Positions 3,251 through 17,191 of a stretch of DNA of 64,000 nucleotides are shown here, one piece after another (within the stretch, counting starts at the first letter, position 1; each line of letters opens with the position of its first letter). Under the pieces are notes generated by a model that saw nothing but the letters and a program-made list of their open reading frames with translations, searched no databases and was not told the origin of the DNA. The DNA comes from Terriglobia bacterium (lineage in GTDB: Bacteria; Acidobacteriota; Terriglobia; Bryobacterales; Bryobacteraceae): contig JANYDS010000043.1 in the NCBI GenBank assembly GCA_025363475.1, positions 1 to 64,000 of the forward strand. The letters are read 5' to 3'. Made by a program: the position numbers and the translations under genes.

Positions 3251-6200
3251 TCACCCTGCCAGCACAACAGAACGGCGGTCGAGAGGGCGTTCCGGCACAT
3301 CAAGGTTGAACAGGCAGATATGGTCAAAGGCCCACAGATTGGCATAGGGGATGCCAGCGCCCCACACCAGCGCCAGTTCCCGTGCCCAGGGCGTGGCCGA
3401 ACCGAACACCGGCACCAGATAACGGATCGAGTCGCGCGGCCAGCCGAAGTTCGGGAAAAGTTCAATTGCTTCCCGGGCCAGATCCAGATTTCTCATCCCG
3501 GTGGCAAAAGCCAGTGCTTCCACTTTTACCCGGTCAAATCCGCTGCTGCTTTGTGTCTGCCATTCAACCGGCAGGTTAATGAAGCGGTTGAGCTGTCCCC
3601 CCAGATACGGGCTTTCGTTCGGCACCGGTGTCGGATAATCCACGTCATACGGCCAGAGCAGTTCGCATTTCACCGTGGGATGTGCAGTACGGATATCAGC
3701 AATCAGCGCAGCTACGTAATCGCGCAGCCGGTTACGCAGAAACAAAGCGTCCGCCCCGCCATTCACCGAAGGGTCATCATTCGGATAATCAAAAACGTGC
3801 AGCGGCCTGCCAAGTGCCACCTCCGCAGCCGCCATGGTTTCGTCGTCGTAATAGGCCATGCCGCCGCCAGCCTGCGGAAAATACCACCACAGGCATTCGC
3901 CGTACTGGACCGCCGGAGTCAGCCCGGCATCGGTCTGCAACTGAGCGATGGCCCGATAAACGGTTTTCTGAAAAGCCAGCAGCCGCGTTGAACCAACCGC
4001 GCAATGATTTGATGCCAGAGTTCCGAAGCCGGTAGCCGTCGTCACCGGAGTGTGTGCCGAATCCGCGAATCGGGCGGTGTAGCCATCCGGCGGATTCACC
4101 AGTTCAAGCGAACAAGCTGTCACCACCTCACGCCCGCGCGAGGCGCACTGCGCATAAAAATCAGCATGCCAATCGCGCGCCGCCCGGTTCAACGGCTGCG
4201 TGGCTGTGTCGTCAATCACCCAACTCCGCCCGGCGTAATCACCGGCCACCGGAGTCGCCGTGATTTCAACGTGGCCAGCCGCTGAAATAACATCACGGGT
4301 CAGCGTCAGGTTGTAGTCAGGCGAGGGTGATCGCGAGGTGATGGTGAGTTCGCCCCCTATAGTTGCCGTGGCCCATGCACCCACAGAAGTTTCGTTGATC
4401 CACGCCGCAAAATGGAGAGCGATACTGGCCAGTGTGTCGCCCCCGTACACGTTTTTTTTCAGAACCGTGTCGTTGACCGTGATGTGGATTTGTTCACCCG
4501 CTGCAAACGTTCCGCTGAATGCGATCCGCCCATGCGAAACCGAACCACCCGAGGCGACACGCTCATTCCACCAGAAAACACCCAGGTATTCGTTCATCGG
4601 CCCGGCATATCCCAGCCGGTCCATAATCCACATCAGCCGCGCGGGCGGCAGCTTGTAAGTATGGTCGGTATCGAAGTCGAGGGCAGGCGAAATATTGGTG
4701 CGCGCTTCCAGTGCATCGGGCACGTTGGAGAGCACCGCGGCCTCAAGGAAATTGAAATAGAAAACGCCAGCTGAGTGCAGCGTGAATGTCACCGTATGTT
4801 TTCCCGCCGCCACCGTTGCGCGGGCCAGGCGGCGTGTAACCACCGCGCTGCTGGTACTAAGACTGCAATCGAGCGTCGTTGTCGCACCGCCATCAAGCTG
4901 CACGTTTAAAACGGCCCGATCCGAATCGAGCGACGTTCCCAAATAAAGGTCGTGCGTGAACTGGCAATAGTAAGTGACCGTGAGCGAGGCCGTGACATCA
5001 CTCGTGGCCTGGGCGAAATATTTGGAATAGAAGCCGGATTCTGTCGTCCACGCCCCGTGGTACGCGCACGCCGAGTCGCCCTGTTCGATACGCACGCTGC
5101 CTGGTCCTGCCACCTTAAGCGCCAGCGCAGTTGTACTGCCCGGCAGGGCTGTCAGTGTCCAGTCTGAGAACGTCGCTTGCCATTCGGTGGCTGTAAATGG
5201 GGTCCCGTTCGCCACGGAAGGCGCGAACGTAAGCCAGCATTGCCGCAAATGATCAATGCCCCGCGCGGTGAAATCGACCACGCAGTTCCAGCTAACATCA
5301 GAACTGCCGCCCGAAAGCTGTATCGTGGTCTGGTCCAGCGTACAGGTGGGCGGTGTCGTAAGCGCATAGAGCTGAATCATGTTGCCGTCGCGGCCCCCGC
5401 GTGGTGCCACCCACGTCAGGCCGCTCCCATCGGCCGCCGTCTCACCCACTGTCAGATGAGTGGGTGATTCCACACTGGCCACTGTGTGCGGAACATTCGC
5501 AATCAGGATGGGTGAACCCGCCGTGATACCGGTAAACCGCGCGCCGCCCGCCAGCGTTACGGAGGTGCCGGCGACATCCGCAGTCCCGTAACGTGCTGCG
5601 GTTACTGTCAGCGCAGGACCCGTGCTGCTGGCAAGCAGTGCATGGGTAGTGTTGGCCGTATTCCAGTCCGCGACATTGATCTGCGCGGCCAGACCCGCTG
5701 CGACCAGCGTCGGGCTGCTTGAAAAGAGGGTCACGGAAGCATTGCCATCTGACGCGGAAAGCGGGATCTCGATTCCCTCTCGGCCCGTGCGGACCGTCAG
5801 AATCACAACATTGCCATCGGCACCGGCCGTAGCCTCCACATCCGGATCAGCAGCGGTCTTGATGGCATCAATCAGGGCGCTGGCCTGACGCGTGGCGTCT
5901 TCACCCGCCGCTTCGGTATGCGTGTAAGTGCGACCGTTAATCGTAATCGAATGCGCTGTGCCGGTAGTGCCTGCGAAAAACAGGAACCCGGTGGAACGCG
6001 GATGTTCACCGGGCACCACATAGTCAAACACCAGGTTCTGGAACCACAGCGTTATGCGATCGTAAGGACGCACATGGCTGTCGGTGGTAACGTTTACCGT
6101 GGAACTGGCCGCCGGAAATGTGGAACTGGCCAGCGTCGCGTAGTCCCACAGTCGAACTTTGACTTTGGTAGGGGGGGCGTCAGTCGTCACGCAGTCCAGC

Positions 6201-6556
6201 GTCGCCCAGTCGATCCAGTTATATTTCGGAGAATCGATCGGCTGCAGACCGTCGCTGTAGTGAAGCTTAAAGCTGAGAGTAAGGTTGCGGAAGTCGAAAT
6301 CGGGGAGGTAGCGGATGGACGGATGTTCATAGAAATTATCCGCGTCATACAGCACCGCCACGGCAAAGTCCGCCGGATCACGGAAAGTTCCGCTGACCTT
6401 AAAGCCGGTGGGCGACGCCGAGTGAATGGTTGCGGCGGCGGCAAAGCTGTCAAAACCCCGCAGGGCCAAGGTGCGATCGGGCTGAAGTTTATAGATGGGT
6501 TCGGGCAATCGGGTTTCCGTCCGGTCCGATTGTGCCACCGCCCGCGCAGGCGTCAA
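3251..6556 (-). CDS. Very large phage-tail-like protein with C-terminal TIM-barrel-like domain
   Basis: Protein of about 1100 aa without an obvious signal peptide. The N-terminal 190 residues form a conserved-looking beta-rich domain ([38 protein letters not shown]). A module typical of large phage-tail proteins occurs at about 205-285 ([20 protein letters not shown], then [15 protein letters not shown]). A diverged second copy occurs at about 675-760 ([20 protein letters not shown], then [12 protein letters not shown]). The last 350 residues ([20 protein letters not shown], then [13 protein letters not shown]) read like a glycosidase-type TIM barrel. This layout recalls non-contractile tail-sheath proteins, but that is from memory and unverified. 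The start is uncertain: the frame opens after a TAG with TTG at 6556 and GTG shortly after, neither with a clear ribosome-binding site. No other tail genes are nearby. Confidence 0.5.
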
Positions 6557-6664: not shown

Positions 6665-9436
6665 CTAAAAAACGAGCGGCTGGAACCCATATGTACCAAA
6701 GCCCAGCACCATTTCGTTTAGCACCGGAACAGTCCAGGCATTATCGCCGTCGTAGTCCAGAATCCACAAGCCGCCGCGGTACACACCGATCTTCGAAGCT
6801 CGTCCCGAACTGTCCCAGTCGCCAACCACCGGAAGGTCGCCCGCCTGCCCATAGCTGTAGGTACGGTCAGCGGCGGTAAAAACGCCATCGCCGTCGTAAT
6901 CCACCATCCAGAGCCCGTTGCGGAAAACGCCCACTTTAGTTGTGCCTGATCCGCTCCAGTCCGCTGCCACAGGCAAATCGCCCGCCTGACCAAACGAAGC
7001 CAAAGTGATATCGGTTTGTCCGGTAGCCACGCCTGTCAGATGACCGCTCAGGTCCAGGATAAAACTGCCTTGCCGAAACAACCCCAGCGCGATACGGCCC
7101 GAACCAGTCCAGTCACCCACCACAGGCAGATCGCCCGCCTGTCCAAAATTAACCGTCAAATCACCTGCACCGAAGTACCCGTCACCGTTGATATCCAGAT
7201 ACCAGATCCCGTTCCGAAAGACACCAATCCGTTTCTTGCCCGTGCCATCCCAGTCGCCAACAATCGGCATATCTGACGCATTACCAAAAAACGTGGTGTT
7301 CGTAAACCAGGCTACATGCCACGGATCAGTCACAATCGCAGTATTGGAGTCGATGCCAATCGTAAACGCTGGCGCAATCTTGGTGATGAACGAAGTGAGC
7401 TTCGACGGCAGCGACCGCTGCAAGTTCCCGGCCAGCGGGAAATCCTGCGAACTGGTCTGGCCAGCCACGATGATCGATGTTTGAACATCCACCGCGATCG
7501 CGTTACCGGAATCGTTACCAGCGCCCCCCAGATACGTTCCGAAGAGCACACTGTTCAGCGTCGGATTCAATTTCGCCACGAACGCATTGTTAGTGCCATT
7601 GTTCACAATCTGGACCGCACGCTGCAGCGGAAAATCCTGCGATACCGTATAGCCGGTCACATAGGCATTGCCGTGATAATCAAGCGCCAGTGCGTTGATT
7701 CCGTCATTCAATATTCCGCCCAGAAAGGTGGAGTTGAGCAACTGGCCCGTTCTGGAAAAGCGCGCAACGAAGCCATCCGTGGCACCACCGAAAGTAGTCT
7801 GAAAGGCTCCGCTCGTAACAGGAAAATTGAGTGATCCTGTGGTCCCTGCCGCAACTATATTACCCAGCAGATCCACAAATAGCGCATTCACCGTTTCCGG
7901 CAAGCCGGCGGAGCCGCCCGTCCCGCCCAAATAGGTACTAAACATCAGCGTGGTCAGGTCCGGTGAGAGCTTCGTTAAGAAACCGTCCTGCCCTCCGGCA
8001 TTGTGAATCTGGTAAGCCGCAGCCACAGGAAAATTCACCGAATACGTATAACCGCCCACATACACGAAGCCCGCACCATCCAGCTTCACGGCAGCCGCAT
8101 GGTCAGCGCCGCTGCCACCCAGGTAAGTAAGGTAAACCAGCGCGTTTCCGGCAGGAGATAACTTCGCGACAAACGTATCCTGCGCCCCCGCCCCGCGCGC
8201 CTGAAAGGCATGCAAAGTCGCGGGCAAATTAGTGGACGTAGTGTCCCCGGTGATCCAGGCGGAATTGTTCCGGTCCACAATAATTGAGTTGCCTGTATCC
8301 ACGGCGGAACCGCCCAGATACGTGCTGTAAATCAGCGCAGTGCCGGTGGTGTTGAGCTTGGCCACAAACGCATCACGCGTCCCGCCTAACCGCCCCTGCA
8401 GCGCTCCCACAGTCGGAAAATTTGCCGACGATGTATACCCCGTCACATATGGATTGCGGTTGCCGTCAACTGCCAGGCCGAACGCCCGGTCATCGCCCGA
8501 GCCGCCCAGATATGTACACCACATCAGGCCCCCGCCATTTGGCGCAAAGCTGGCAACAAATGCATCCACTCCACCGCCATTTCTCGCCCGCGCACTGCCT
8601 GTCGCAGGCAGATCCGTGGAACTGGTCCACCCGGCCACCACCACGTTGTTGTAGATATCAAACGCAAGCGCAGTAATACTCTCCTGCGTGCTGCCGCCGA
8701 AGTAACCGCTGAATAATATCGAGGGGTCAATCACCAGCGGCTGCGAATGATCATACGGCCCAGCCTCAAAGCCAACCGTGCCATCTTCAAACTTGCGGAA
8801 TGCTCCGTCAACGAAGCGGTACTCACCGTTTACAGTCTGAAACAGCACCGGCTTGTCTTCAATGAAATCGCCACCCGACCCGCGAACGCGCAGCGTGCCA
8901 TCAGCCTGCACCGCCGCCTCAGTCTCAAACCGCAACCGGATCTCGTCCACCGAAGCCCCGGGGGCCACAAGATATTCCGCCTTGACTCGTGTGTCTTCAG
9001 CTTTATAAGTAAGTTCCACACCAGGCCAGATGCCTTCATACTTGAGTGCGCCATATAGAGGCAGATCGGTATGCCAGTCACGCGCACTATTCCCACGCAG
9101 ATAGTTCGCTTTCGCTCCCAGAGGCATTTCCCCTCTTATTACCGGAGTCACCCGATTCGCCTTGCCCGCAAACCTGAACCTGACACTGGTCTGACGTTGC
9201 TGCAAAATCACCGCGTCATCAAGAAACCACGCCTTAAACTCAGGCCCCGCGCCCGTATAGCGAACACCAGCTTCCGCCTGCCCCCGGTTTTCCACAAAAG
9301 CGAAAGGCATACGCGGCGACTGATCCGCCGACCCGCCGCCCCGCAAAACAGCCCCAGCGCCTGGCACAAACAGCGCAGAAACAAAACACAACACCACCGA
9401 CATTCGGACGATTGCAATCATCTCTTTTGGTCTCAT
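6665..9436 (-). CDS. Secreted SBBP-repeat beta-propeller protein with C-terminal FG-GAP-like repeats
   Basis: About 923 aa with a signal peptide (VVLCFVSALFVPGAGA). After a conserved N-terminal domain (PFAFVENRGQAEAGVRYTG, then DWHTDLPLYGALKYEGIWPG) come about seven SBBP repeats of roughly 50-60 aa, each with a YLGGSGDDRAFGLAVD / YVTGYTSSANFP pattern and a DAFVAKL strand. The last 240 residues contain four copies of an FGQAGDLPVVGDW...IGVFR..W.LD..GDG unit, resembling calcium-binding FG-GAP/VCBS blades. Such proteins are common in Acidobacteria and are probably cell-surface or secreted scaffolds. The ATG at 9436 gives a basic n-region; ATG 9421 is also possible. Confidence 0.85.
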   Translation of the reverse strand: MRPKEMIAIVRMSVVLCFVSALFVPGAGAVLRGGGSADQSPRMPFAFVENRGQAEAGVRYTGAGPEFKAWFLDDAVILQQRQTSVRFRFAGKANRVTPVIRGEMPLGAKANYLRGNSARDWHTDLPLYGALKYEGIWPGVELTYKAEDTRVKAEYLVAPGASVDEIRLRFETEAAVQADGTLRVRGSGGDFIEDKPVLFQTVNGEYRFVDGAFRKFEDGTVGFEAGPYDHSQPLVIDPSILFSGYFGGSTQESITALAFDIYNNVVVAGWTSSTDLPATGSARARNGGGVDAFVASFAPNGGGLMWCTYLGGSGDDRAFGLAVDGNRNPYVTGYTSSANFPTVGALQGRLGGTRDAFVAKLNTTGTALIYSTYLGGSAVDTGNSIIVDRNNSAWITGDTTSTNLPATLHAFQARGAGAQDTFVAKLSPAGNALVYLTYLGGSGADHAAAVKLDGAGFVYVGGYTYSVNFPVAAAYQIHNAGGQDGFLTKLSPDLTTLMFSTYLGGTGGSAGLPETVNALFVDLLGNIVAAGTTGSLNFPVTSGAFQTTFGGATDGFVARFSRTGQLLNSTFLGGILNDGINALALDYHGNAYVTGYTVSQDFPLQRAVQIVNNGTNNAFVAKLNPTLNSVLFGTYLGGAGNDSGNAIAVDVQTSIIVAGQTSSQDFPLAGNLQRSLPSKLTSFITKIAPAFTIGIDSNTAIVTDPWHVAWFTNTTFFGNASDMPIVGDWDGTGKKRIGVFRNGIWYLDINGDGYFGAGDLTVNFGQAGDLPVVGDWTGSGRIALGLFRQGSFILDLSGHLTGVATGQTDITLASFGQAGDLPVAADWSGSGTTKVGVFRNGLWMVDYDGDGVFTAADRTYSYGQAGDLPVVGDWDSSGRASKIGVYRGGLWILDYDGDNAWTVPVLNEMVLGFGTYGFQPLVF

Positions 9437-9681
9437 GAGAATGATCGGCAACCGCAGTCAGAACCTTTAGCCCGCGCCACGTTGCGAGAATAGCCAGAGA
9501 GAAACGGAGGCAAATTTCTGGCACCACAACTACAACTTCTTCAGTCAAAACTTGGGTGGAACAAGTGACCCCGCCCCTCGAAACCGCCCGACTCTGAACG
9601 CTGCGGAATGCGCATCATCGCCACCCTGAAACGCGACTATGTCAGTAGACGCTTACCCGCCGAACTCTGGGAAATTACCGC

Positions 9682-10602
9682 TCAGGAATGGCGCGTCTGG
9701 CGGACCAGCAGTGCCCCCCAATGAAAGCCGGCCCCGAACGCTGCAAAGCAAACCAGGTCGCCGTCATCAAACGTATTGGATTCACTCCACTCCGCAGCCG
9801 CAATCAGCATTGAAGCGGATGATGTGTTCCCAAACCGCCGAATATTCGAATAGATCCGCTCCGCCGGAACGCTGATCGCCTTCGCCACCCGGTCCATCAA
9901 ATTCTGATTCGCCTGATGCATCAGGAAAACCCGCACCTCATCCGCACCCGCGCCATTACGACTCAAAACTTCCTCAATCGCCGCAGGCATCTTGCGCGAA
10001 GCCTGCATAATCACAGACCGGCCATTCATCTGTACCGGGCCATCAAATTCCAGCCGCAAATCTTCCGCATAACTGCCATCCGAATGCAGCACCGAGTCAA
10101 GAACTTCAAGACCGCTGGCACCGCCAGAAATCAGGCAAGCACCAGCACCATCACCAAACAAAATGCCCACGTTCTTATCGAGTGGCGCAGCCAAGCCCGG
10201 TCCCGACATCTTCTCTGCCGCAATCACCAGGACTTCGCCATAAACCGCAGCCAGTTGCGCCCCCAGCGCCATTCCAAACAGCGAACCACAGCTCGCCAGA
10301 GGAAGGTCAATCGCAGCAATACCGTCGAAACCCAAGCGATGCGCAACCTGCGCCGCAGGCCCCGGAAAGCGCCGTTCAGACGACGCCGAACTTACAATGA
10401 TCAAACCCGGTTTCGTCGCCAGTTCCCGAGCCGCCGCAACGGCAAGATCCACCACAGTCTCATCGGCCCGCGCCACCCGACGCTCTTCAATCCCGGTAGC
10501 CGAAAGAATCCAGTCCGCATCGCACTGCAGCATCTCCGCCAGTTCCGCATTGCCCAGAACCCGCTCCGGAACATACCGCCCGAAAGCAACAATCGCAGCC
10601 AT
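9682..10602 (-). CDS. 3-oxoacyl-ACP synthase III (KASIII/FabH-like), operon-specialised
   Basis: 306-aa thiolase-fold condensing enzyme. The Cys-His-Asn triad is visible: Cys105 in PLASCGSLFG, His229 in MHQANQNLMDRVAK and Asn259 in RRFGNTSSAS. KASIII enzymes condense an acyl-CoA primer with malonyl-ACP, or transfer acyl groups. Here it is the last gene of the MBOAT operon; its ATG overlaps the stop of the acyl carrier protein gene by one base (TAATG). That coupling suggests it loads or elongates acyl groups on that carrier, rather than serving bulk fatty-acid synthesis. The active-site loop LASCGS differs from the AACSGF type of housekeeping FabH, so substrate choice may differ. Activity is inferred, not shown. 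Confidence 0.88.
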   Translation of the reverse strand: MAAIVAFGRYVPERVLGNAELAEMLQCDADWILSATGIEERRVARADETVVDLAVAAARELATKPGLIIVSSASSERRFPGPAAQVAHRLGFDGIAAIDLPLASCGSLFGMALGAQLAAVYGEVLVIAAEKMSGPGLAAPLDKNVGILFGDGAGACLISGGASGLEVLDSVLHSDGSYAEDLRLEFDGPVQMNGRSVIMQASRKMPAAIEEVLSRNGAGADEVRVFLMHQANQNLMDRVAKAISVPAERIYSNIRRFGNTSSASMLIAAAEWSESNTFDDGDLVCFAAFGAGFHWGALLVRQTRHS

Positions 10603-10838
10603 TACGCGAGGCGTGTCTCGATGTAACTTTCGATCCGCTCAATCGAATCAAACCGGCGCGGATTGAGATCTGAATCAGGAATGTTGATCGCGAACGCCTT
10701 TTCCAGTTCACCCACCATATCGGTGAGCGCAAAAGAATCCAGATACCCCGAATCAAAAAGCGATTCATCCACTGCCGGAATTGACCCCTTGCCCGAAACT
10801 TTCTTAACGATGTCTGCGATCGTGTCTTGTCTATTCAT
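10602..10838 (-). CDS. Acyl carrier protein, dedicated to MBOAT operon
   Basis: 78-aa acidic helical protein with the carrier motif SGYLDSFALTDMV. Ser35 in DSF (DSL in most carriers) is the expected 4'-phosphopantetheine site, and the preceding LFDSG and following ELEKAFAINIPDSDL match the helix II-III region. It overlaps the upstream SGNH gene by 8 bases and the downstream KASIII gene by one, so synthesis of the three is coupled. In Dlt systems a carrier of this kind hands its acyl group to an MBOAT protein. Here no adenylation (DltA-like) gene is present and the KASIII gene is the only visible loading partner. Confidence 0.9.
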   Translation of the reverse strand: MNRQDTIADIVKKVSGKGSIPAVDESLFDSGYLDSFALTDMVGELEKAFAINIPDSDLNPRRFDSIERIESYIETRLA

Positions 10839-12072
10839 GAATACCGTTCAATAGCTGCGTAGAAATCATGTCGCCCAGCAACCGGTAACCCTCACCGGTC
10901 AGATGAATATAATCACCCTGTGAAAGGCCCGCCGTAACCCAGCGTTTAACAATACCAGGCCCGCCCATATGCAGCCGCCAGTCCCAAAACGCCAGACCCT
11001 GTTTCAACGCCAGTTCACGCTGCACATCAATCACCTCACTCAGGTGAATCAGCGAACGCGGATTGCCGCAGTCAGGCGGCCCCACGATAAGAATCGACGC
11101 GTTCGGCGTGGCCGCACGAATACGCGCAATTACCGCCGTAAGATCCGACCGATACTGTTCCGCAGTCCATAGATGACCGTTCGCTTCATTCGTCCCATAA
11201 GCCAAAATCACCAGGCTTGCCGCACGCCGCGCCCCCAGCGCCATCCACACTGGCGCATTCCAGCCCAGCATTACATTCGCCTGCGCGCCATTAATTCCCA
11301 TGGTCTCCAGCGTCAATCCGCGCGTATTATCCAGAGTGAAACCAAACAACCGCACCGGTGCCCGGTTCAGTGTACGCAGCGCAATCTCATGTAAACCTGG
11401 CACCAGCGCACGTGAAAAAACGCCCGGCCCGAAATCCCCATCCGTCCCAACCGACCCCGCAATCTCATTGTCAATCTGGACCTCAAACTGACCCCCGCCC
11501 GGCTGCTGCTGATAGAAGATTTCCAGCAGTTCACCCGATGCTCGAAGCGTCACTGTTTGCCCGGCCGCCTGAGCCGTGATACTCAGCCCGCTCAGCCCCT
11601 GATATTCATCCCCGCGCAGCGCCATCACGCCCTCAGTCTTCCAGCCCGCCGACTGATTCCCCAGCGCATCATACCTTCGATAGCCGCGAAACGGCCGACC
11701 CGCATGAACAAACCCCGGGCCCCCATCACCAAAGCGCGTCTGCAATGCCGTGCGCATCGCATTCACCCAGTCATCTGACGCCGTATGCGAATCCCCAAAC
11801 TGCAGAATGTGAACTGGCGGACCGCCCTTGTGCACCTGCTTCATCGCCTCAAAAAATCCCGCCAGCGCCTCTGGATTTTCGATGCCGGTAGTGACATCCG
11901 CCATGCGACCATCAATCTCTTCACGCGCCGCAAACCGGGCCGCCGGACTAATACGAACCGGCACCGCAGCCTTCCGCCGCACAACAGGTCGCTTCTTCAC
12001 CGGAGGCGCGGCGGCAAAAGCCGGAACGATAGCCAGCGCAACAGTCAGCAAAAAGACCACCAGCCGCTTCAC
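10831..12072 (-). CDS. Secreted SGNH/GDSL-family esterase or acyltransferase, copy 2 of operon pair
   Basis: 413-aa exported protein with a signal peptide (VVFLLTVALAIVPAFA) and a basic linker. All four SGNH blocks are present: ILQFGDSH (Ser95), MGINGAQ, AYGTNEANG and DYIHLTGEGY (Asp387, His390). A beta-rich insert lies between blocks I and II (IFYQQQPGGGQFEVQIDNE). It is paralogous to the protein encoded upstream, sharing the insert and block order. It starts with GTG inside the stop of that gene (4-base overlap). SGNH proteins paired with MBOAT transporters (AlgJ/AlgX, PatB, DltD) carry out the final acyl transfer to a polymer outside the membrane; that role is inferred here. Confidence 0.87.
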   Translation of the reverse strand: MKRLVVFLLTVALAIVPAFAAAPPVKKRPVVRRKAAVPVRISPAARFAAREEIDGRMADVTTGIENPEALAGFFEAMKQVHKGGPPVHILQFGDSHTASDDWVNAMRTALQTRFGDGGPGFVHAGRPFRGYRRYDALGNQSAGWKTEGVMALRGDEYQGLSGLSITAQAAGQTVTLRASGELLEIFYQQQPGGGQFEVQIDNEIAGSVGTDGDFGPGVFSRALVPGLHEIALRTLNRAPVRLFGFTLDNTRGLTLETMGINGAQANVMLGWNAPVWMALGARRAASLVILAYGTNEANGHLWTAEQYRSDLTAVIARIRAATPNASILIVGPPDCGNPRSLIHLSEVIDVQRELALKQGLAFWDWRLHMGGPGIVKRWVTAGLSQGDYIHLTGEGYRLLGDMISTQLLNGIHE

Positions 12073-13340
12073 TGCTTCGAGGCCTCGTAGCCTTCCATTA
12101 AAGCCTTCTCAAACAGCTCGCCCACAATCGCCGCACCCGCCGGCATGGGATGCAGAAAATCAGCGCTCACCAGCCGGGGCTGTGAATGATACCAGCGGTT
12201 CATCGTGCCTTCGCCGCCCATCGCTTCAAATGTGTTGAAGAACGCACAGCCGGTTTCCGCCGCCACTTTGCGCTGCGCTTCGATAATGGCATGCAGCGCC
12301 GGAGGCGTCGAAATATCCGGTCCTGTTCCGCGGTCCATAGGACCCATCAACAGCAACGAAGCATGCGGCAGCGCAGCCCGCAACCGCGCAATCACGCGCC
12401 GTAGCTCCTGCGGATATTCCTTCTCCACGTAGGCCGGGTAAAGACTCTCATTCGTCCCGTAACTCACCACCACCAGATCCGGATTCTCATGACTCAGTTC
12501 CGCCGCCCAGTGCGGCTCATTAAAATGGCGGACAATCATCTGCACCTGCGCGCCATTCACGCCCAAACTGCTGTACTGCACGCCCGGCCGGTCTTTATCG
12601 AAACGATAACCAAACAGCCGCACATTCCCCTGCGAGACAGCCAGCTGAATCGCCTGCGTCCCTGGCGGCAGAGTGATTTCGGCAAACGCGGGTTTTGTCT
12701 CGTCGGCAGCAGTATGCACTTCTTCTATCTTCGCCTCATTATTCCTCACCGTGAAATTGCCCCCGCCCGGCTGCGCCAAATAGTAAACAATCACGCGCGA
12801 GTACTGGTTGTCCGGCAGAATCACGCGTGAATTCGCGCCCGGTTCGCCTTTGAAACTCACGCCGCCCAGCCCGTGTAAACCATCGCGCGCCCAGCCCTGG
12901 TTGGCCGGTTCAATCTTCCAGCCCCGGTCCTCCAGCTTGACGCCGTTATGCCCGTACCAGGCCCAGGGCTTGGCAATCAGCAGATAGCCGTGCCCCGCAT
13001 CACCGAACCGCTGCTGCAGCAAGCGGCGGATGTCTGAAGTTATGGAGTCCGCCGTTGTGGGTGAATCGCCATAGTGCAGCACGCGTGTAACAGCGCCCAG
13101 CCGCAGTGAGGCGTAAAACGTATCCAGACTGCCCGGCGGAATCTCCAGATTCGGAGGCGGCAAGGGTGCAGGTTTCGCAGAAACAGGCGTTATTAGTTTG
13201 GGCTTAGGTGCTGCCACCGGCAACGGTAATTTAAACGTGGAAAGCAGCAGACCAGAACGCATTCCATGGGGCAGAAAGACCGCCATCACCGCGAAGGTGA
13301 CCAGAGCGAGCGACGTTTTGCGGGGCAGGGTATCTAACAT
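12069..13340 (-). CDS. Membrane-anchored SGNH/GDSL-family esterase or acyltransferase, copy 1 of operon pair
   Basis: 423 aa. An N-terminal membrane segment (LALVTFAVMAVFLPHG) is followed by a proline-rich spacer (about residues 40-70) and an SGNH domain: VLHYGDSPTTAD (Ser93), LGVNGAQ, VSYGTNES and SADFLHP (Asp394, His397). The same beta-rich insert as in its downstream paralogue is seen (YYLAQPGGGNFTVRNNEAK). Its ATG follows the MBOAT stop codon with no gap and its stop overlaps the next start. It probably sits on the outer face of the membrane beside the MBOAT protein. Two SGNH enzymes could act on different substrates, or one could remove what the other adds. Confidence 0.87.
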   Translation of the reverse strand: MLDTLPRKTSLALVTFAVMAVFLPHGMRSGLLLSTFKLPLPVAAPKPKLITPVSAKPAPLPPPNLEIPPGSLDTFYASLRLGAVTRVLHYGDSPTTADSITSDIRRLLQQRFGDAGHGYLLIAKPWAWYGHNGVKLEDRGWKIEPANQGWARDGLHGLGGVSFKGEPGANSRVILPDNQYSRVIVYYLAQPGGGNFTVRNNEAKIEEVHTAADETKPAFAEITLPPGTQAIQLAVSQGNVRLFGYRFDKDRPGVQYSSLGVNGAQVQMIVRHFNEPHWAAELSHENPDLVVVSYGTNESLYPAYVEKEYPQELRRVIARLRAALPHASLLLMGPMDRGTGPDISTPPALHAIIEAQRKVAAETGCAFFNTFEAMGGEGTMNRWYHSQPRLVSADFLHPMPAGAAIVGELFEKALMEGYEASKQ

Positions 13341-14684
13341 CTAAAACCGCGAGTAAATGAACGGGGCCGCGCCCGTGTTCGCCAGGTATTGAATCGCCAC
13401 CACCAGCAGCGCCAGAGCCGCGGACTGCAGCACCGCCGGAGTTTTCACAAACCCGTTCAGTCCGCGTTCATACCAGGCCTTGGGAATAAAATGTCCCGCA
13501 ACCGCCACGCCCAGGACAAAGACGAACTGCAGCGTGGTGTTCTCAAACGTGAAATGCAGCGAGCCGATTTGTACCAGTATCCGCAGCGCCAGATCGAAAT
13601 CCGCCGCACGGAAAAAGATCCACGCAAACAGCACAAAATGAAACGTGACGAACCGCCCTGCCATCACGGCCAGCCGCGATGGCGCAGGCTGGCCCCGTCG
13701 CATCGTCTGCCACAGCCGGAACCCGGCCAGACCAGAGCCGTGGATCAATCCCCACGTCAAATAATTCCACCCCGCGCCATGCCACAATCCGCCGAGGGCC
13801 ATCGTGATGATCAGGTTCACATAAGGCATCACAGTCGTGCGCGGACCCGGCAGCGAAAAATACAAATACTCCTGCAGCCATTTGGAAAACGAGATATGCC
13901 AGCGCTTCCAGAAATCAGCAATATTCGCCGCCTGGTAAGGAGCATTGAAGTTCACCGGCAGCCGAATGCCCAGCAGCAGTCCCGCCCCGATGGCGATGTC
14001 GCTGTAACCCGAAAAATCGTAATACAGCTGAAAGGCATAACCGTAAACCGCCACCAGAACATCGCCACCCGAGTACAGCGTGGGCAGATCGAAAACGCGG
14101 TTCACCAGGTTGAGCCCCAGGTAATCCGCAATCAGGAATTTCTTGAAGAGGCCGAGGCCGATTAGGAACAGCGCGCGGCTGCCTTCCTCCGCGGTCAGTA
14201 CGGCGTCATTCTTCGTCCATTGCGGCAGCAGTGACGAGACGCGCGTAATCGGCCCCGCCAGCGTTGTGGGGAAGAAGGTCACGGAGGCGAAGTATTGCGA
14301 AAAGCTGGTCGAGGGCTTTGAATCCTTGCGGTAGATATCGAGCGTATAGGTCATCGCCTGGAAGGCGTAGAAAGAGAGGCTGAGCTGTAGCAAAAGACTG
14401 AACTTGCTGAAGACAATCAGCCCCACGTTCATCAGGACGCTGATACAGATCAGAAGCCGGCGCGCGACAGCCCCGGAAGTCCGACCCAAGGCTCGTCCGA
14501 CCAGAAAATCACAACCGGCAGCGACAGGAATCAGAATGAGATAGATCAGCTCCGACCGGGCATAGAAAAACAGATTCGCAGCGCAAATGAGCCCCAGAAC
14601 GGCCGCGCGCCGACGCCGCAACAGCCAGAAAGCGAGGAATACAACAGCCAGAAAACAATAAAATTCCGGCGTAGTGGGAAGCAT
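13341..14684 (-). CDS. MBOAT-family O-acyltransferase (AlgI/DltB-like)
   Basis: 447-aa polytopic membrane protein of the MBOAT family, which passes acyl groups across the membrane for O-acylation of extracellular polymers. It shows FFPTTLAGPITR, the highly conserved YYDFSGYSDIAIG, NFNAPYQAANIADFWKRWHI, SKWLQEYLYF, and the catalytic-channel region GGLWHGAGWNYLTWGLIHG with His302 (invariant WHG) and His315. It is the first gene of a five-gene coupled operon, followed by two SGNH proteins, an acyl carrier protein and a KASIII. No alginate or teichoic-acid genes are nearby, so the polymer that is modified is unknown. Confidence 0.92.
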   Translation of the reverse strand: MLPTTPEFYCFLAVVFLAFWLLRRRRAAVLGLICAANLFFYARSELIYLILIPVAAGCDFLVGRALGRTSGAVARRLLICISVLMNVGLIVFSKFSLLLQLSLSFYAFQAMTYTLDIYRKDSKPSTSFSQYFASVTFFPTTLAGPITRVSSLLPQWTKNDAVLTAEEGSRALFLIGLGLFKKFLIADYLGLNLVNRVFDLPTLYSGGDVLVAVYGYAFQLYYDFSGYSDIAIGAGLLLGIRLPVNFNAPYQAANIADFWKRWHISFSKWLQEYLYFSLPGPRTTVMPYVNLIITMALGGLWHGAGWNYLTWGLIHGSGLAGFRLWQTMRRGQPAPSRLAVMAGRFVTFHFVLFAWIFFRAADFDLALRILVQIGSLHFTFENTTLQFVFVLGVAVAGHFIPKAWYERGLNGFVKTPAVLQSAALALLVVAIQYLANTGAAPFIYSRF

Positions 14685-14754: not shown

Positions 14755-15378
14755 CTAAACGCCATCAATGCCCGCCGCCTTGCGTTTAGCTGGCCGACCT
14801 CGCTCCATCACCACCAGCACCCGCCCCGCCTGCCGCTCCAGATCCATCACAAACGCCCTCGAGCCAAGCGGTTCTCCCACCCGCGTCGCCCGTCGCATGC
14901 GATCTGCCTCAGCATCCGAAAGACATTCTGTACCAGTGCGGGACCAGTCACCATGCGCACTGGACCACGGCCACTCCCACGCCTCACACACCAGCCCCGC
15001 CCGCACCGGATTCAGCTCCGTATACGCAATCGCCCGCCGAAAATGATCCCGGTCCAGCGGACATGAAAAGAACCTGTTCTGCCACAAATGTCCGCTCCTT
15101 CCGCCTGACCGGTTGAACGCCGAAGCGTATTCAGAGTGGGTCCGGCCAAGCGCCTTCGCAAGCCCGGTCTCGTCATCCGGAGTGGCAACGAGTTGAATGT
15201 GATTAGGCATCAGACAAAACGCCTGAACCGCCACGTGCGCAGCAGAACAATGCCCCATCAATAGCCCAACATAAGCGGAGTAGTCTCCCGATGAAACGAA
15301 AACCTGCTCACGATTGTTTCCCCGCTGGGTGATATGGTGCGCGATCCCAGGAAATACGCTGCGGGGACGACGGGGCAT
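14755..15378 (-). CDS. REP-associated tyrosine transposase (RAYT), Y1_Tnp domain
   Basis: About 207 aa, a single-strand HUH-type transposase of the IS200/IS605-related RAYT group. It begins PRRPRSVFPGIAHHITQRGN as in the family and has the MPNHIQLVA motif and the downstream YTELNPVRAGLV block. The HUH pair reads His-Ile-Gln instead of the usual His-hydrophobic-His, so metal binding and activity may be altered. The presumed catalytic Tyr would lie in the helix near AIAYTELN. The start was set at the ATG giving MPRRPR; an ATG two codons upstream is equivalent. Inverted repeats flank the gene. Confidence 0.85.
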   Translation of the reverse strand: MPRRPRSVFPGIAHHITQRGNNREQVFVSSGDYSAYVGLLMGHCSAAHVAVQAFCLMPNHIQLVATPDDETGLAKALGRTHSEYASAFNRSGGRSGHLWQNRFFSCPLDRDHFRRAIAYTELNPVRAGLVCEAWEWPWSSAHGDWSRTGTECLSDAEADRMRRATRVGEPLGSRAFVMDLERQAGRVLVVMERGRPAKRKAAGIDGV

Positions 15379-15415
15379 AAGCATTCTGTGCGATTCGTCT
15401 GGGCAAAATCTCACA

Positions 15416-16045: not shown

Positions 16046-17188
16046 GTGTCCCGTCCCATTTAATTATTCACAACAATCGTAACCTGTGATTCAAATGATG
16101 GTATGTTTGCTGGTGCTTCGGCATTAACCAGCGGAGAAGAGCAAAAGCGTCAATTGGAAACGTTGCTTCGGACCGGGTCCACGCCGCAAAGAACTGCCCG
16201 CCGCTGTCAGGCCGTTCTGTTGGCAGGCCAAGGGCTGTCGAACAGCTTGATCGCCCGACAAACCGGCTTGTCGCGACCAACCGTACTGGCTGCGCGTGCT
16301 GCATTTGCCAGGCGGGGTGCTGCCGGCATCTGCGAGCCGCAAAAGCGAAAGCGGTCGCGCCGGGTGCTGACGCCCGAACTGGAGCAGCGGATTCTGGATG
16401 CAACACTTAAAACCAGACCAGCGAACGCGACGCACTGGAGCGCCCGCGTGCTGGCGTCGAAGATGGGCGTTTCCCGCATGATGGTGCAGCGTCTCTGGCA
16501 ACGCCATGACATTCAGCCGCACCGGGTGGAGAAATTCAAGATCTCGAATGACCCGAAGTTTGAAACTAAGGTGCGGGATGTCATCGGCCTTTACCTGAAC
16601 CCGCCTGACCGCGCCCTTGTGCTCTGTGTCGACGAAAAGAGCCAGATTCAGGCATTAGACCGAACCAGTCCGATTCTTCCGTTGCGGCCGGGAATACCGG
16701 AGCGCCAGACTCATGATTACAAACGGCACGGAACGACTACCTTGTTCGCCGCCTTCAATATTTTGAACGGCAAAGTCATCGGCAGCTGCCTGCCGCGCCA
16801 CCGCGGCAAGGAGTTCATCAAGTTCCTCAATCAACTTGAAAAAGAGGTTCCTCCGGATCTTGACATCCATCTCATTCTCGACAACTACAGCATCCACAAG
16901 AGCGCTGCCGTCCAGGACTGGCTCAAACCAAAACGCCACCGCCGTTTCCATTTCCACTTCACTCCCACCAGCAGTTTCTGGCTCAATCAGGTCGAACGAT
17001 GGTTCGGTCTCATCACCGACAAGATGATCCGGCGAGGCACTTTCCTGTCGGTCGAAGAACTGGAACGCGCCATCTACGCATGGCTCGCTACCTGGAACGA
17101 TACGCCCAAAGCCTTCGTCTGGAAGGCCTCCGCCGACGTTATCCTCGACAAGGTTCGCGGTTGTAAAGAATTATCCGGGACGGCACAC
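16046..17188 (+). mobile_element. IS630-family insertion sequence, complete
   Basis: A 1143-bp element bounded by imperfect terminal inverted repeats of 29 bases (16046-16074 and 17160-17188, 23 of 29 matching, both ends beginning GTGT.CCGTCCC when read inwards). It is flanked by a TA dinucleotide on each side (16044-16045 and 17189-17190), the target duplication expected for IS630. The right flank is a DUF262-type gene that it truncates. One transposase gene is inside. Ends and transposase appear intact, so it may be recent and active. Confidence 0.85.
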
Positions 17189-17191
17189 TAG
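16103..17191 (+). CDS. IS630-family DDE transposase
   Basis: 362 aa. An N-terminal helix-turn-helix (LSNSLIARQTGLSRPTVLAA) is followed by a second DNA-binding segment and an RNase H-like catalytic core. The acidic triad is visible: Asp177 in CVDEKSQIQ, Asp260 in LILDNYSIHK and Glu298 in WLNQVERWF, close to the DD(34-37)E spacing of IS630/Tc1-mariner enzymes. The frame is uninterrupted. The stop codon TAG at 17189-17191 is not inside the element: its TA is the duplicated target site and the G is host DNA. Start ATG 16103 sits 57 bases inside the left end. Confidence 0.92.
   Translation: MFAGASALTSGEEQKRQLETLLRTGSTPQRTARRCQAVLLAGQGLSNSLIARQTGLSRPTVLAARAAFARRGAAGICEPQKRKRSRRVLTPELEQRILDATLKTRPANATHWSARVLASKMGVSRMMVQRLWQRHDIQPHRVEKFKISNDPKFETKVRDVIGLYLNPPDRALVLCVDEKSQIQALDRTSPILPLRPGIPERQTHDYKRHGTTTLFAAFNILNGKVIGSCLPRHRGKEFIKFLNQLEKEVPPDLDIHLILDNYSIHKSAAVQDWLKPKRHRRFHFHFTPTSSFWLNQVERWFGLITDKMIRRGTFLSVEELERAIYAWLATWNDTPKAFVWKASADVILDKVRGCKELSGTAH

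Follow-up and report, generated by a model that had tools for sequence, protein, structure and literature searches.

Several described systems each resemble in part a five-gene operon of a Terriglobia bacterium (phylum Acidobacteriota), which we analysed in a 64,000-nucleotide stretch of DNA, hereafter the window (GenBank assembly GCA_025363475.1, contig JANYDS010000043.1, positions 1 to 64,000). In the OAP or PatA-PatB-Ape1 systems of Neisseria and Campylobacter, a membrane-bound O-acyltransferase (MBOAT) with a catalytic His and an FXYXXF motif adjoins two SGNH proteins (PMC12148441, PMC1199599), and OAP clusters are described as an MBOAT with Ape genes (PMC1199599). The Tyr of FXYXXF in Campylobacter jejuni PatA is auto-acetylated from acetyl-coenzyme A (acetyl-CoA) and Neisseria gonorrhoeae PatB takes acetyl from the acetylated peptide; acetyl-CoA as the donor of PatA-type machines is itself a recent report (PMC12148441, 2025). 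The Dlt system (DltABCDX) combines a carrier, an MBOAT and an SGNH protein with an acyl-Tyr shuttle motif, and the 2025 report describes MBOAT/SGNH pathways other than Dlt as being without a similar carrier, evidently because acyl-CoA is used (PMC12148441).

Enzymes of the ketoacyl synthase III (KASIII) fold are known to transfer acyl groups. DpsC, from priming of the daunorubicin polyketide synthase, is a KASIII with a Ser nucleophile that self-acylates and passes the acyl group to the one acyl carrier protein (ACP) that it serves (PMC12664062). The KASIII-like acyltransferases ChlB3 and CerJ, of which ChlB3 loads an ACP, keep the Cys and use a His-Asp pair (PMC9573744).

The operon in the window encodes an MBOAT, two SGNH proteins (here SGNHa and SGNHb), a carrier and a KASIII whose nucleophile position is Ser. 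In our reading it is a machine of the OAP type extended by a carrier of its own and by a ketosynthase put to a new use. A preliminary description, made from the sequence alone, had seen here an envelope acylation system of the MBOAT/SGNH kind with its own carrier and with a KASIII where an activating enzyme would be, and had known of no system so composed; the first of these readings is borne out, and the open-access literature (titles and abstract starts) yielded no description of an MBOAT, SGNH, carrier and KASIII combination. We consider it probable that the carrier and KASIII form a dedicated pair serving a PatA-type MBOAT/SGNH machine, whose acyl donor would then be the carrier protein in place of CoA.

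The operon and its conservation

The operon comprises five reverse-strand open reading frames (ORFs) with junctions of 0, 4, 8 and 1 bases. The genes and their junctions are those first described, and each of the five proteins scores above the Pfam cut-off for its family: MBOAT, Lipase_GDSL_2 (SGNH, twice), PP-binding and ACP_syn_III/ACP_syn_III_C. In order of transcription, the features are as follows (aa, amino acids).

13341 to 14684, reverse strand: MBOAT, 447 aa, PatA/AlgI-like (Pfam MBOAT, 76.9 bits)
13848 to 13859, reverse strand: MBOAT residues 276 to 279 (FSLP), cytosolic segment, differing from the segment in 12 comparison MBOATs
13779 to 13781, reverse strand: codon of MBOAT catalytic His302 (codon checked)
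13353 to 13355, reverse strand: codon of the putative acyl-shuttle Tyr444 of the MBOAT, within C-terminal FIYSRF (codon checked)
12069 to 13340, reverse strand: SGNHa, 423 aa, SGNH protein with modelled Ape1 fold; Ser93, Asp394, His397 (Z 42.1 to 4k3u)
10831 to 12072, reverse strand: SGNHb, 413 aa, Ape1-like SGNH protein; Ser95, Asp387, His390 (phmmer to 4k3u, E 9.3e-29)
10602 to 10838, reverse strand: acyl carrier protein, 78 aa; phosphopantetheine (Ppant) site Ser35 (10734 to 10736) in an LDSF motif (Pfam PP-binding, 35.9 bits)
9682 to 10602, reverse strand: Ser-type KASIII, 306 aa; Ser104 (10291 to 10293), His229, Asn259 (alignment with relatives)
10288 to 10290, reverse strand: codon of KASIII Cys105, not the nucleophile (alignment)

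As the preliminary description had stated, none of the five proteins is a DltA adenylation enzyme, the search for which was confined to these ORFs. Counting the operon copies, the genome has four matches to MBOAT and five each to KASIII and PP-binding; the operon carrier and KASIII are not its only copies, there being four others of each. A promoter and terminator scan gave nothing above shuffled sequences.

Conservation was assessed in two samples. In the first, 396 Acidobacteriota genomes were searched with SGNHa (up to four candidates scored per genome), giving a match in 31, of which 16 reached at least 250 bits; neighbourhoods were read in all 16 of these SGNHa-strong genomes and in nine of the 15 weaker ones. 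Seven of the 16, window included, carry MBOAT-SGNHa-SGNHb-ACP-KASIII on one strand and three carry SGNHb-MBOAT-SGNHa-ACP-KASIII. In two more, the carrier and KASIII adjoin the remaining three genes but are encoded on the opposite strand, and for one genome the contig is partial. Two loci of the window's own family (L040 and L043) have the first three genes only, with the carrier-KASIII pair together elsewhere (L103 and L102), and genome G291 has the carrier in the operon and the KASIII elsewhere. All 16 genomes hold an operon-type KASIII: Ser-type in 12 (at least 370 bits) and Cys-type in four, adjoining in G063, G075 and G339 and separate in G291. In the stretch read, eight of the weaker genomes (G316, G340, G320, G008, G146, G167, G281 and G388) show no carrier or KASIII match; each has one or two matches for SGNH and three of them also have an MBOAT match.

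A scan of the phylum genomes with a Ser-KASIII profile, A2 (up to five candidates scored per genome), placed 13 genomes at 370 bits or more, followed by G063 at 280 bits, with its Cys-type operon KASIII, and the rest at 257 or less. All but one of these 13, G100, also belong to the 16 SGNHa-strong genomes. The G100 locus (L220, 4120 to 10090) is a sugar-nucleotide cluster whose MBOAT also ends in FXYXXF; the cluster further encodes a protein of 360 aa that bears a GSSR motif but matches no Pfam family. Applied to the phylum counts, a Fisher test gives p 9e-19 but takes no account of profile circularity or shared ancestry, and it is left out of the evidence; confidence in the linkage is unaffected by dropping it, because that confidence rests on adjacency counts.

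The second sample took the best 80 of 281 relatives found with an SGNHa alignment in GTDB, at one genome per species. Carrier and KASIII are both in the locus in 57 of the 80 and KASIII alone in one. The remaining 22 divide into 12 without the pair despite at least 1,500 bases downstream, five cut by a contig end and five without a detected SGNHb; 18 of these 22 genomes hold a Ser-type KASIII of at least 414 bits elsewhere, each beside a carrier gene. Five of the 18 separate Ser-KASIII genes adjoin an SGNHb and are probably the missing contig piece of the same operon. The five-gene set is conserved within Acidobacteriota, more than chance would give, and its gene order occurs in many acidobacterial genomes besides its own. 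The preliminary description survived both of the tests that it had set for itself, one on the spread of the gene order and one on whether the carrier and KASIII are sole copies in the genome.

Judged by eye, the record titles of the 80 loci are acidobacterial except for L168 (Arcobacter sp.), where a full five-gene operon of the acidobacterial type stands under a title that likely belongs to a mislabelled or mixed metagenome-assembled genome. Clusters from four other taxa (Bacteroides, Parabacteroides, Sphingomonas and Citrobacter plasmids) pair an MBOAT with two neighbours annotated SGNH/GDSL (one in Parabacteroides merely ‘hypothetical’), with no carrier or KASIII annotated nearby in a gene table that is incomplete. 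Queried with the KASIII, the plasmid collection returned only general FabH matches among the 30 of 338 records listed.

No sixth gene belongs to the operon by the measure used. Flank families, not all of them identified, were formed from ORFs of at least 90 aa within 5 kb (blastp, E 1e-12), and the commonest has matches in 15 loci besides its own, so that no flank family occurs in more than 16 of the 80 loci and no reductase travels with the operon. An AMP-ligase adjoining L041 was considered and rejected, none being seen by eye beside L042, L044 and L045, as was an SH3-domain protein downstream of some split loci (L043, L185), whose conservation is too low to count.

Components of the machine

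The preliminary description had credited the KASIII with an intact Cys-His-Asn triad (C105, H229, N259). His229 and Asn259 stand, and C105 does not: it lies one residue past the nucleophile position, Ser104, which aligns with Cys112 of Escherichia coli K-12 FabH, which we take to be the nucleophile there, and with a Cys of FabH 8vd9. An alignment with the four own-genome paralogues likewise puts the nucleophile position at Ser104. Residue counts come from 60 rows from 58 of the 80 loci, with gapped rows left out (three for Ser, five for His and six for Asn). Every readable relative has Ser at the nucleophile position (57 of 57), and Ala comes next in 56 of 57; His229 (55 of 55) and Asn259 (54 of 54) are likewise invariant, which makes this an S-H-N family. 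In a tree of 55 KASIII sequences from which the nucleophile column had been removed, a branch with 100/99 support separates all 27 Ser rows from the rest; their neighbours are four Cys rows, of which three come from operons of the same kind (L047, L050, L051) and one from G291 (L104). The 31 operon-type sequences are split, again at 100/99, from E. coli FabH and the four own-genome paralogues in this unrooted tree.

The KASIII shares with FabH full-length homology and the kept His and Asn, and differs in having Ser for the catalytic Cys, in its separate tree group and in being tied to an envelope operon; it falls below the fabH cut-offs (TIGR00747, 214.9 versus 292.1 bits; NF006829, 247.7 versus 249). 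The equivalent of E. coli FabH Trp32, whose role is presumably CoA binding, is kept in 57 of 58 readable rows, a retention that would fit CoA binding, and that of Phe87 in 57 of 57. Phe87 was proposed to favour acetyl, a rule that other FabHs contradict. DpsC shares the Ser nucleophile and service to a single ACP but has the triad S118-H297-D302 (PMC12664062), whereas the operon KASIII has Asn third, no Asp after it and no polyketide cluster; to judge from PMC9573744, DpsC His297 would sit at the Asn place. ChlB3 and CerJ share the use of a KASIII fold for acyl transfer and differ in their Cys and His-Asp pair.

A second carrier-KASIII pair in the same genome (L066, 4492 to 6560, contig C5) has a Cys-type KASIII, with a FabG-like SDR and a hexapeptide transferase nearby, and provides a condensing-type contrast to the operon pair. 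At L115 and L149 the KASIII reading frame is in two pieces, through a frameshift or an assembly error.

The label ‘Dlt-like’, given to the operon in the preliminary description, is apt for its logic and not for its family. Both systems have a carrier, an MBOAT and an SGNH protein with an acyl-Tyr shuttle motif; here, however, the motif is fused to the MBOAT, whereas Dlt has it in the separate microprotein DltX, the SGNH proteins are Ape1-type, a KASIII replaces the ligase and the DltB and DltC cut-offs are missed. The best PDB sequence match of the carrier is the D-alanyl carrier protein 8jf2 (E 1.4e-5), but the carrier scores below the DltC cut-offs (NF003464, 37.2 versus 68 bits; TIGR01688, 20.4 versus 52.35). 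Ser35 is kept in 61 of 61 rows and Phe36 in 56 of 61, in a mixed set that includes five rows of weak, unrelated carrier matches. The MBOAT scores 168.1 bits against the DltB model TIGR04091 (cut-off 375). We had expected it to be more DltB-like than other MBOATs, but eight MBOATs outside the operon family span 151 to 198 bits, with an operon relative at 179, and membership of the Dlt family was rejected on these grounds together with the missed cut-offs.

Among the 80 GTDB loci, no readable MBOAT row departs from His302 (73 of 73), and FXYXXF ends all 75 complete C-termini. When 89 operon-family MBOATs were compared by position with 12 others, six positions were fixed in more than 90% of the family and present in at most one of the 12. 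Two of these are F276 (83/89) and P279 (84/89), where the 12 have I or W and G or A, respectively; the same segment starts with GG in ten of the 12 (seven GGNR, two GGSR and one GGKH) and is AGLR in two. A phmmer alignment places F276 on DltB Met302 and P279 on DltB Val305. The DltB helix residues Met302, Val305, Ile306 and Met309 hold DltC (PMC11035591), so two of the six family-distinguishing positions align with DltC-contacting residues. On the carrier side, Phe36 and Asp40 stand at the places of Met36 and Glu40, which DltC uses, and both points speak for docking. The changed cytosolic segment is suggestive of a changed donor site.

Both SGNH proteins are, as had been proposed, paralogues, and both appear from their modelled folds to be Ape1-type over their full length, inserted beta domain included; the Ape1-type inserted segment after block I, shared with OAP systems, is present in each. 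By phmmer, SGNHb matches the peptidoglycan O-acetylesterase 4k3u, which we take to be Neisseria meningitidis Ape1, at E 9.3e-29 over residues 73 to 407, and SGNHa matches it more weakly (E 3.9e-15). AlphaFold models of SGNHa and SGNHb have a mean pLDDT of 89.8 and 87.3. The SGNHa model matches 4k3u with Z 42.1 over 337 residues and C. jejuni Ape1 (8gkd, 8gld) with Z 37.3, the next fold scoring 18.7 and PatB (8tlb) 15.5; the SGNHb model matches Ape1 in Foldseek at E 1.4e-30, with TM above 0.7 for Ape1 structures only, among the 50 matches listed. A PatB identity for SGNHa was rejected because the Ape1 match spans the whole length and the PatB match the SGNH core only. Unlike OAP systems, the operon has two Ape1-type SGNH proteins and no PatB-type one, with the carrier and KASIII as extras. 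Ser93, Asp394 and His397 of SGNHa are kept in 80 of 80 loci and Ser95 of SGNHb in 74 of 75. The SGNHa N-terminus resembles a membrane-anchor helix and that of SGNHb a signal peptide, and an AxA motif, used as a home-made heuristic to separate signal peptide from anchor, occurs in nine of 79 SGNHa and 43 of 75 SGNHb sequences. Since its N-terminus is anchor-like and not a cleavable signal, we propose SGNHa as the acyltransferase (the PatB role) and SGNHb as the O-acyl esterase, the reverse assignment being possible.

Proposed mechanism and rival explanations

We propose that the KASIII transacylates instead of condensing: its Ser104 would take a short acyl group, probably acetyl from acetyl-CoA, and pass it to the Ppant arm on carrier Ser35. 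The acyl-carrier would dock on the cytosolic face of the MBOAT, which, using His302, would move the acyl group across the membrane to Tyr444 of FIYSRF. The membrane-anchored SGNHa would take it from Tyr444 through Ser93 and transfer it to a periplasmic glycan, most likely the N-acetylmuramic acid (MurNAc) of peptidoglycan, and the secreted SGNHb would remove it through Ser95, as Ape1 does. Gene content, conservation, co-occurrence, residues, SGNH folds and KASIII phylogeny are established here; every reaction, the acyl group (probably acetyl), the acceptor (probably peptidoglycan) and the SGNH roles are inferred. The full chain, from KASIII-loaded carrier through the PatA-like MBOAT to transfer by SGNHa and removal by SGNHb, has in our view an even chance of being right. 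We hold more tentatively, at slightly short of even, the wider idea that the Cys-to-Ser KASIII is a dedicated donor generator, whether transacylase or malonyl-carrier decarboxylase, for a PatA-type MBOAT in carrier-dependent O-acylation of peptidoglycan or another envelope glycan, uncoupled from bulk acetyl-CoA, and that the carrier and Ser-KASIII form a portable donor module for different MBOAT/SGNH machines, perhaps including that of G100.

Several observations weigh against the proposed chain. PatA accepts acetyl-CoA without an intermediary, and this chemistry can therefore proceed with no carrier. The FabH residues Arg36, Arg151 and Arg249 presumably have CoA or ACP roles; the Arg36 place in the operon KASIII is V, M, A or S and never Arg (58 of 58 readable rows), the Arg151 place is Arg or Lys in 41 of 56 and the Arg249 place is Asn in 54 of 55, so from these sites CoA use does not appear clear. 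The DpsC His-Asp pair is missing, with Asn259 and Ser264 at those places, and the kept His229 and Asn259 would not obviously be needed by a pure transacylase. The difference in the MBOAT docking segment is confounded with phylogeny, operon MBOATs being alike by descent; the P279 place is A or G in the operon relatives L046, L047, L050 and L051, and the MBOAT near the G100 carrier-KASIII pair keeps GGNR. The transferase role of SGNHa is drawn from a membrane anchor called by heuristic, and the PatB-type block II, in which Gly (a residue picked here by eye) is replaced, was not found, every SGNHa (80 of 80) and every readable SGNHb (74 of 74) retaining G-x-N-G. On the side of distribution, the G100 carrier and Ser-KASIII, with another MBOAT some 3 kb away, belong to a sugar-biosynthesis cluster in which no Ape1-type SGNH was found; in the weaker SGNHa genome G193, a 3.5-kb contig carries a related MBOAT and an SGNHb, and the genome holds no high-scoring KASIII; and four of the 80 genomes, metagenome assemblies by title, yielded no Ser-KASIII (L145, L152, L156, L179). 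Profile A2 was built from nine of its 13 genomes (all but G103, G158, G176 and G100), which makes its score gap partly one of construction, and the 80 loci, chosen by SGNHa likeness and related, give counts that are not independent, with at least one genome (L144, one of the 18 with a separate Ser-KASIII and the same as G289) in both samples.

How the carrier is charged admits two other answers. The same machine could be fed by a Ser-KASIII that decarboxylates malonyl-carrier to acetyl-carrier instead of transacylating from acetyl-CoA. The His and Asn of ketosynthases serve malonyl decarboxylation, and Cys-less ketosynthases decarboxylate; in this family the Cys is replaced while His (55 of 55) and Asn (54 of 54) are kept, and the change is common to one tree group. 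A KASIII without the DpsC His-Asp pair but with His and Asn makes decarboxylation a live rival, albeit one we judge unlikely, because Ser is itself a nucleophile, because no flank family, and hence no malonyl transferase, occurs in more than 16 of the 80 loci and because the Cys-keeping sister group in the same kind of operon makes acyl transfer the simpler common activity, most simply carrier loading. The other answer, in line with the preliminary description's enzyme building a short or branched acyl group, is that the KASIII condenses, leaving a beta-ketoacyl or a longer or branched acyl on the carrier, and that an unusual acyl reaches the polymer. The family match, the kept His and Asn and the Cys of the operon relatives L047, L050 and L051 would suit a condensing enzyme, but a Ser nucleophile in 57 of 57, the want of any flank family, and hence of a reductase or dehydratase, in more than 16 of the 80 loci and the presence in the same genome of a different locus uniting a carrier, a Cys-type KASIII and an SDR leave condensation improbable, and less likely than loading or decarboxylation.

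For the destination of the acyl group, the rival reading is that the same carrier-fed machine acylates a surface polysaccharide or lipid in place of peptidoglycan, which we find doubtful, if worth keeping in view. In Agrobacterium tumefaciens, which has an OAP cluster, peptidoglycan O-acetylation was found to be only minimal (PMC1199599), and the sugar-biosynthesis cluster of G100 houses both a Ser-KASIII pair and another MBOAT. Yet both SGNH proteins match Ape1 over their full length, inserted beta domain included, and no flank family, whether of glycosyltransferases or of anything else, recurs in over 16 of the 80 loci (families not all identified); the polymer that the preliminary description called unknown need not be so, peptidoglycan being the leading candidate. 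Most improbable of all is ordinary O-acetylation fed by acetyl-CoA, with the carrier and KASIII serving something else, such as fatty-acid priming. PatA does use acetyl-CoA directly (PMC12148441), and in 12 of the 80 loci no pair accompanies MBOAT, SGNHa and SGNHb even with at least 1,500 bases following, ten of these 12 genomes having the KASIII elsewhere. But a separated KASIII has not been lost from its genome and continues to adjoin a carrier gene, the operon KASIII lies outside the housekeeping tree group, and the four MBOAT/SGNH clusters of other taxa have no carrier or KASIII annotated (in the incomplete gene table).

If such a pair does feed the machine, the lineage would break the rule that there is no carrier outside Dlt (PMC12148441), and would join the logics of Dlt and Pat. 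Its changed cytosolic segment would make it a natural experiment on what decides whether an MBOAT accepts a CoA or a carrier donor, a repurposed ketosynthase would be another way, other than a ligase, to charge such a carrier, and the operon would give a first clue to possible wall decoration in Acidobacteriota, which are abundant in soil.

Neighbouring genes

In loci that lack the carrier-KASIII pair, SGNHb can be followed by a gene for an SH3-domain, lipoprotein-like protein, as at L043 (2340 to 3488) and L185 (4408 to 5691), the L185 gene having relatives downstream in ten further loci. In the window, a protein with DUF7948 and SBBP beta-propeller domains is encoded immediately downstream of the operon (6665 to 9451, reverse strand), and beyond it a 1101-aa ORF (3251 to 6556, reverse strand) matches the TIM-barrel and N-terminal domains of non-contractile tail sheath protein. 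Directly upstream of the operon is a Y1-type (IS200-like) transposase gene (14755 to 15414, reverse strand, by Pfam), and about 1.4 kb beyond the operon start lies a DDE_3 (IS630-like) transposase (16103 to 17191, forward strand, by Pfam).

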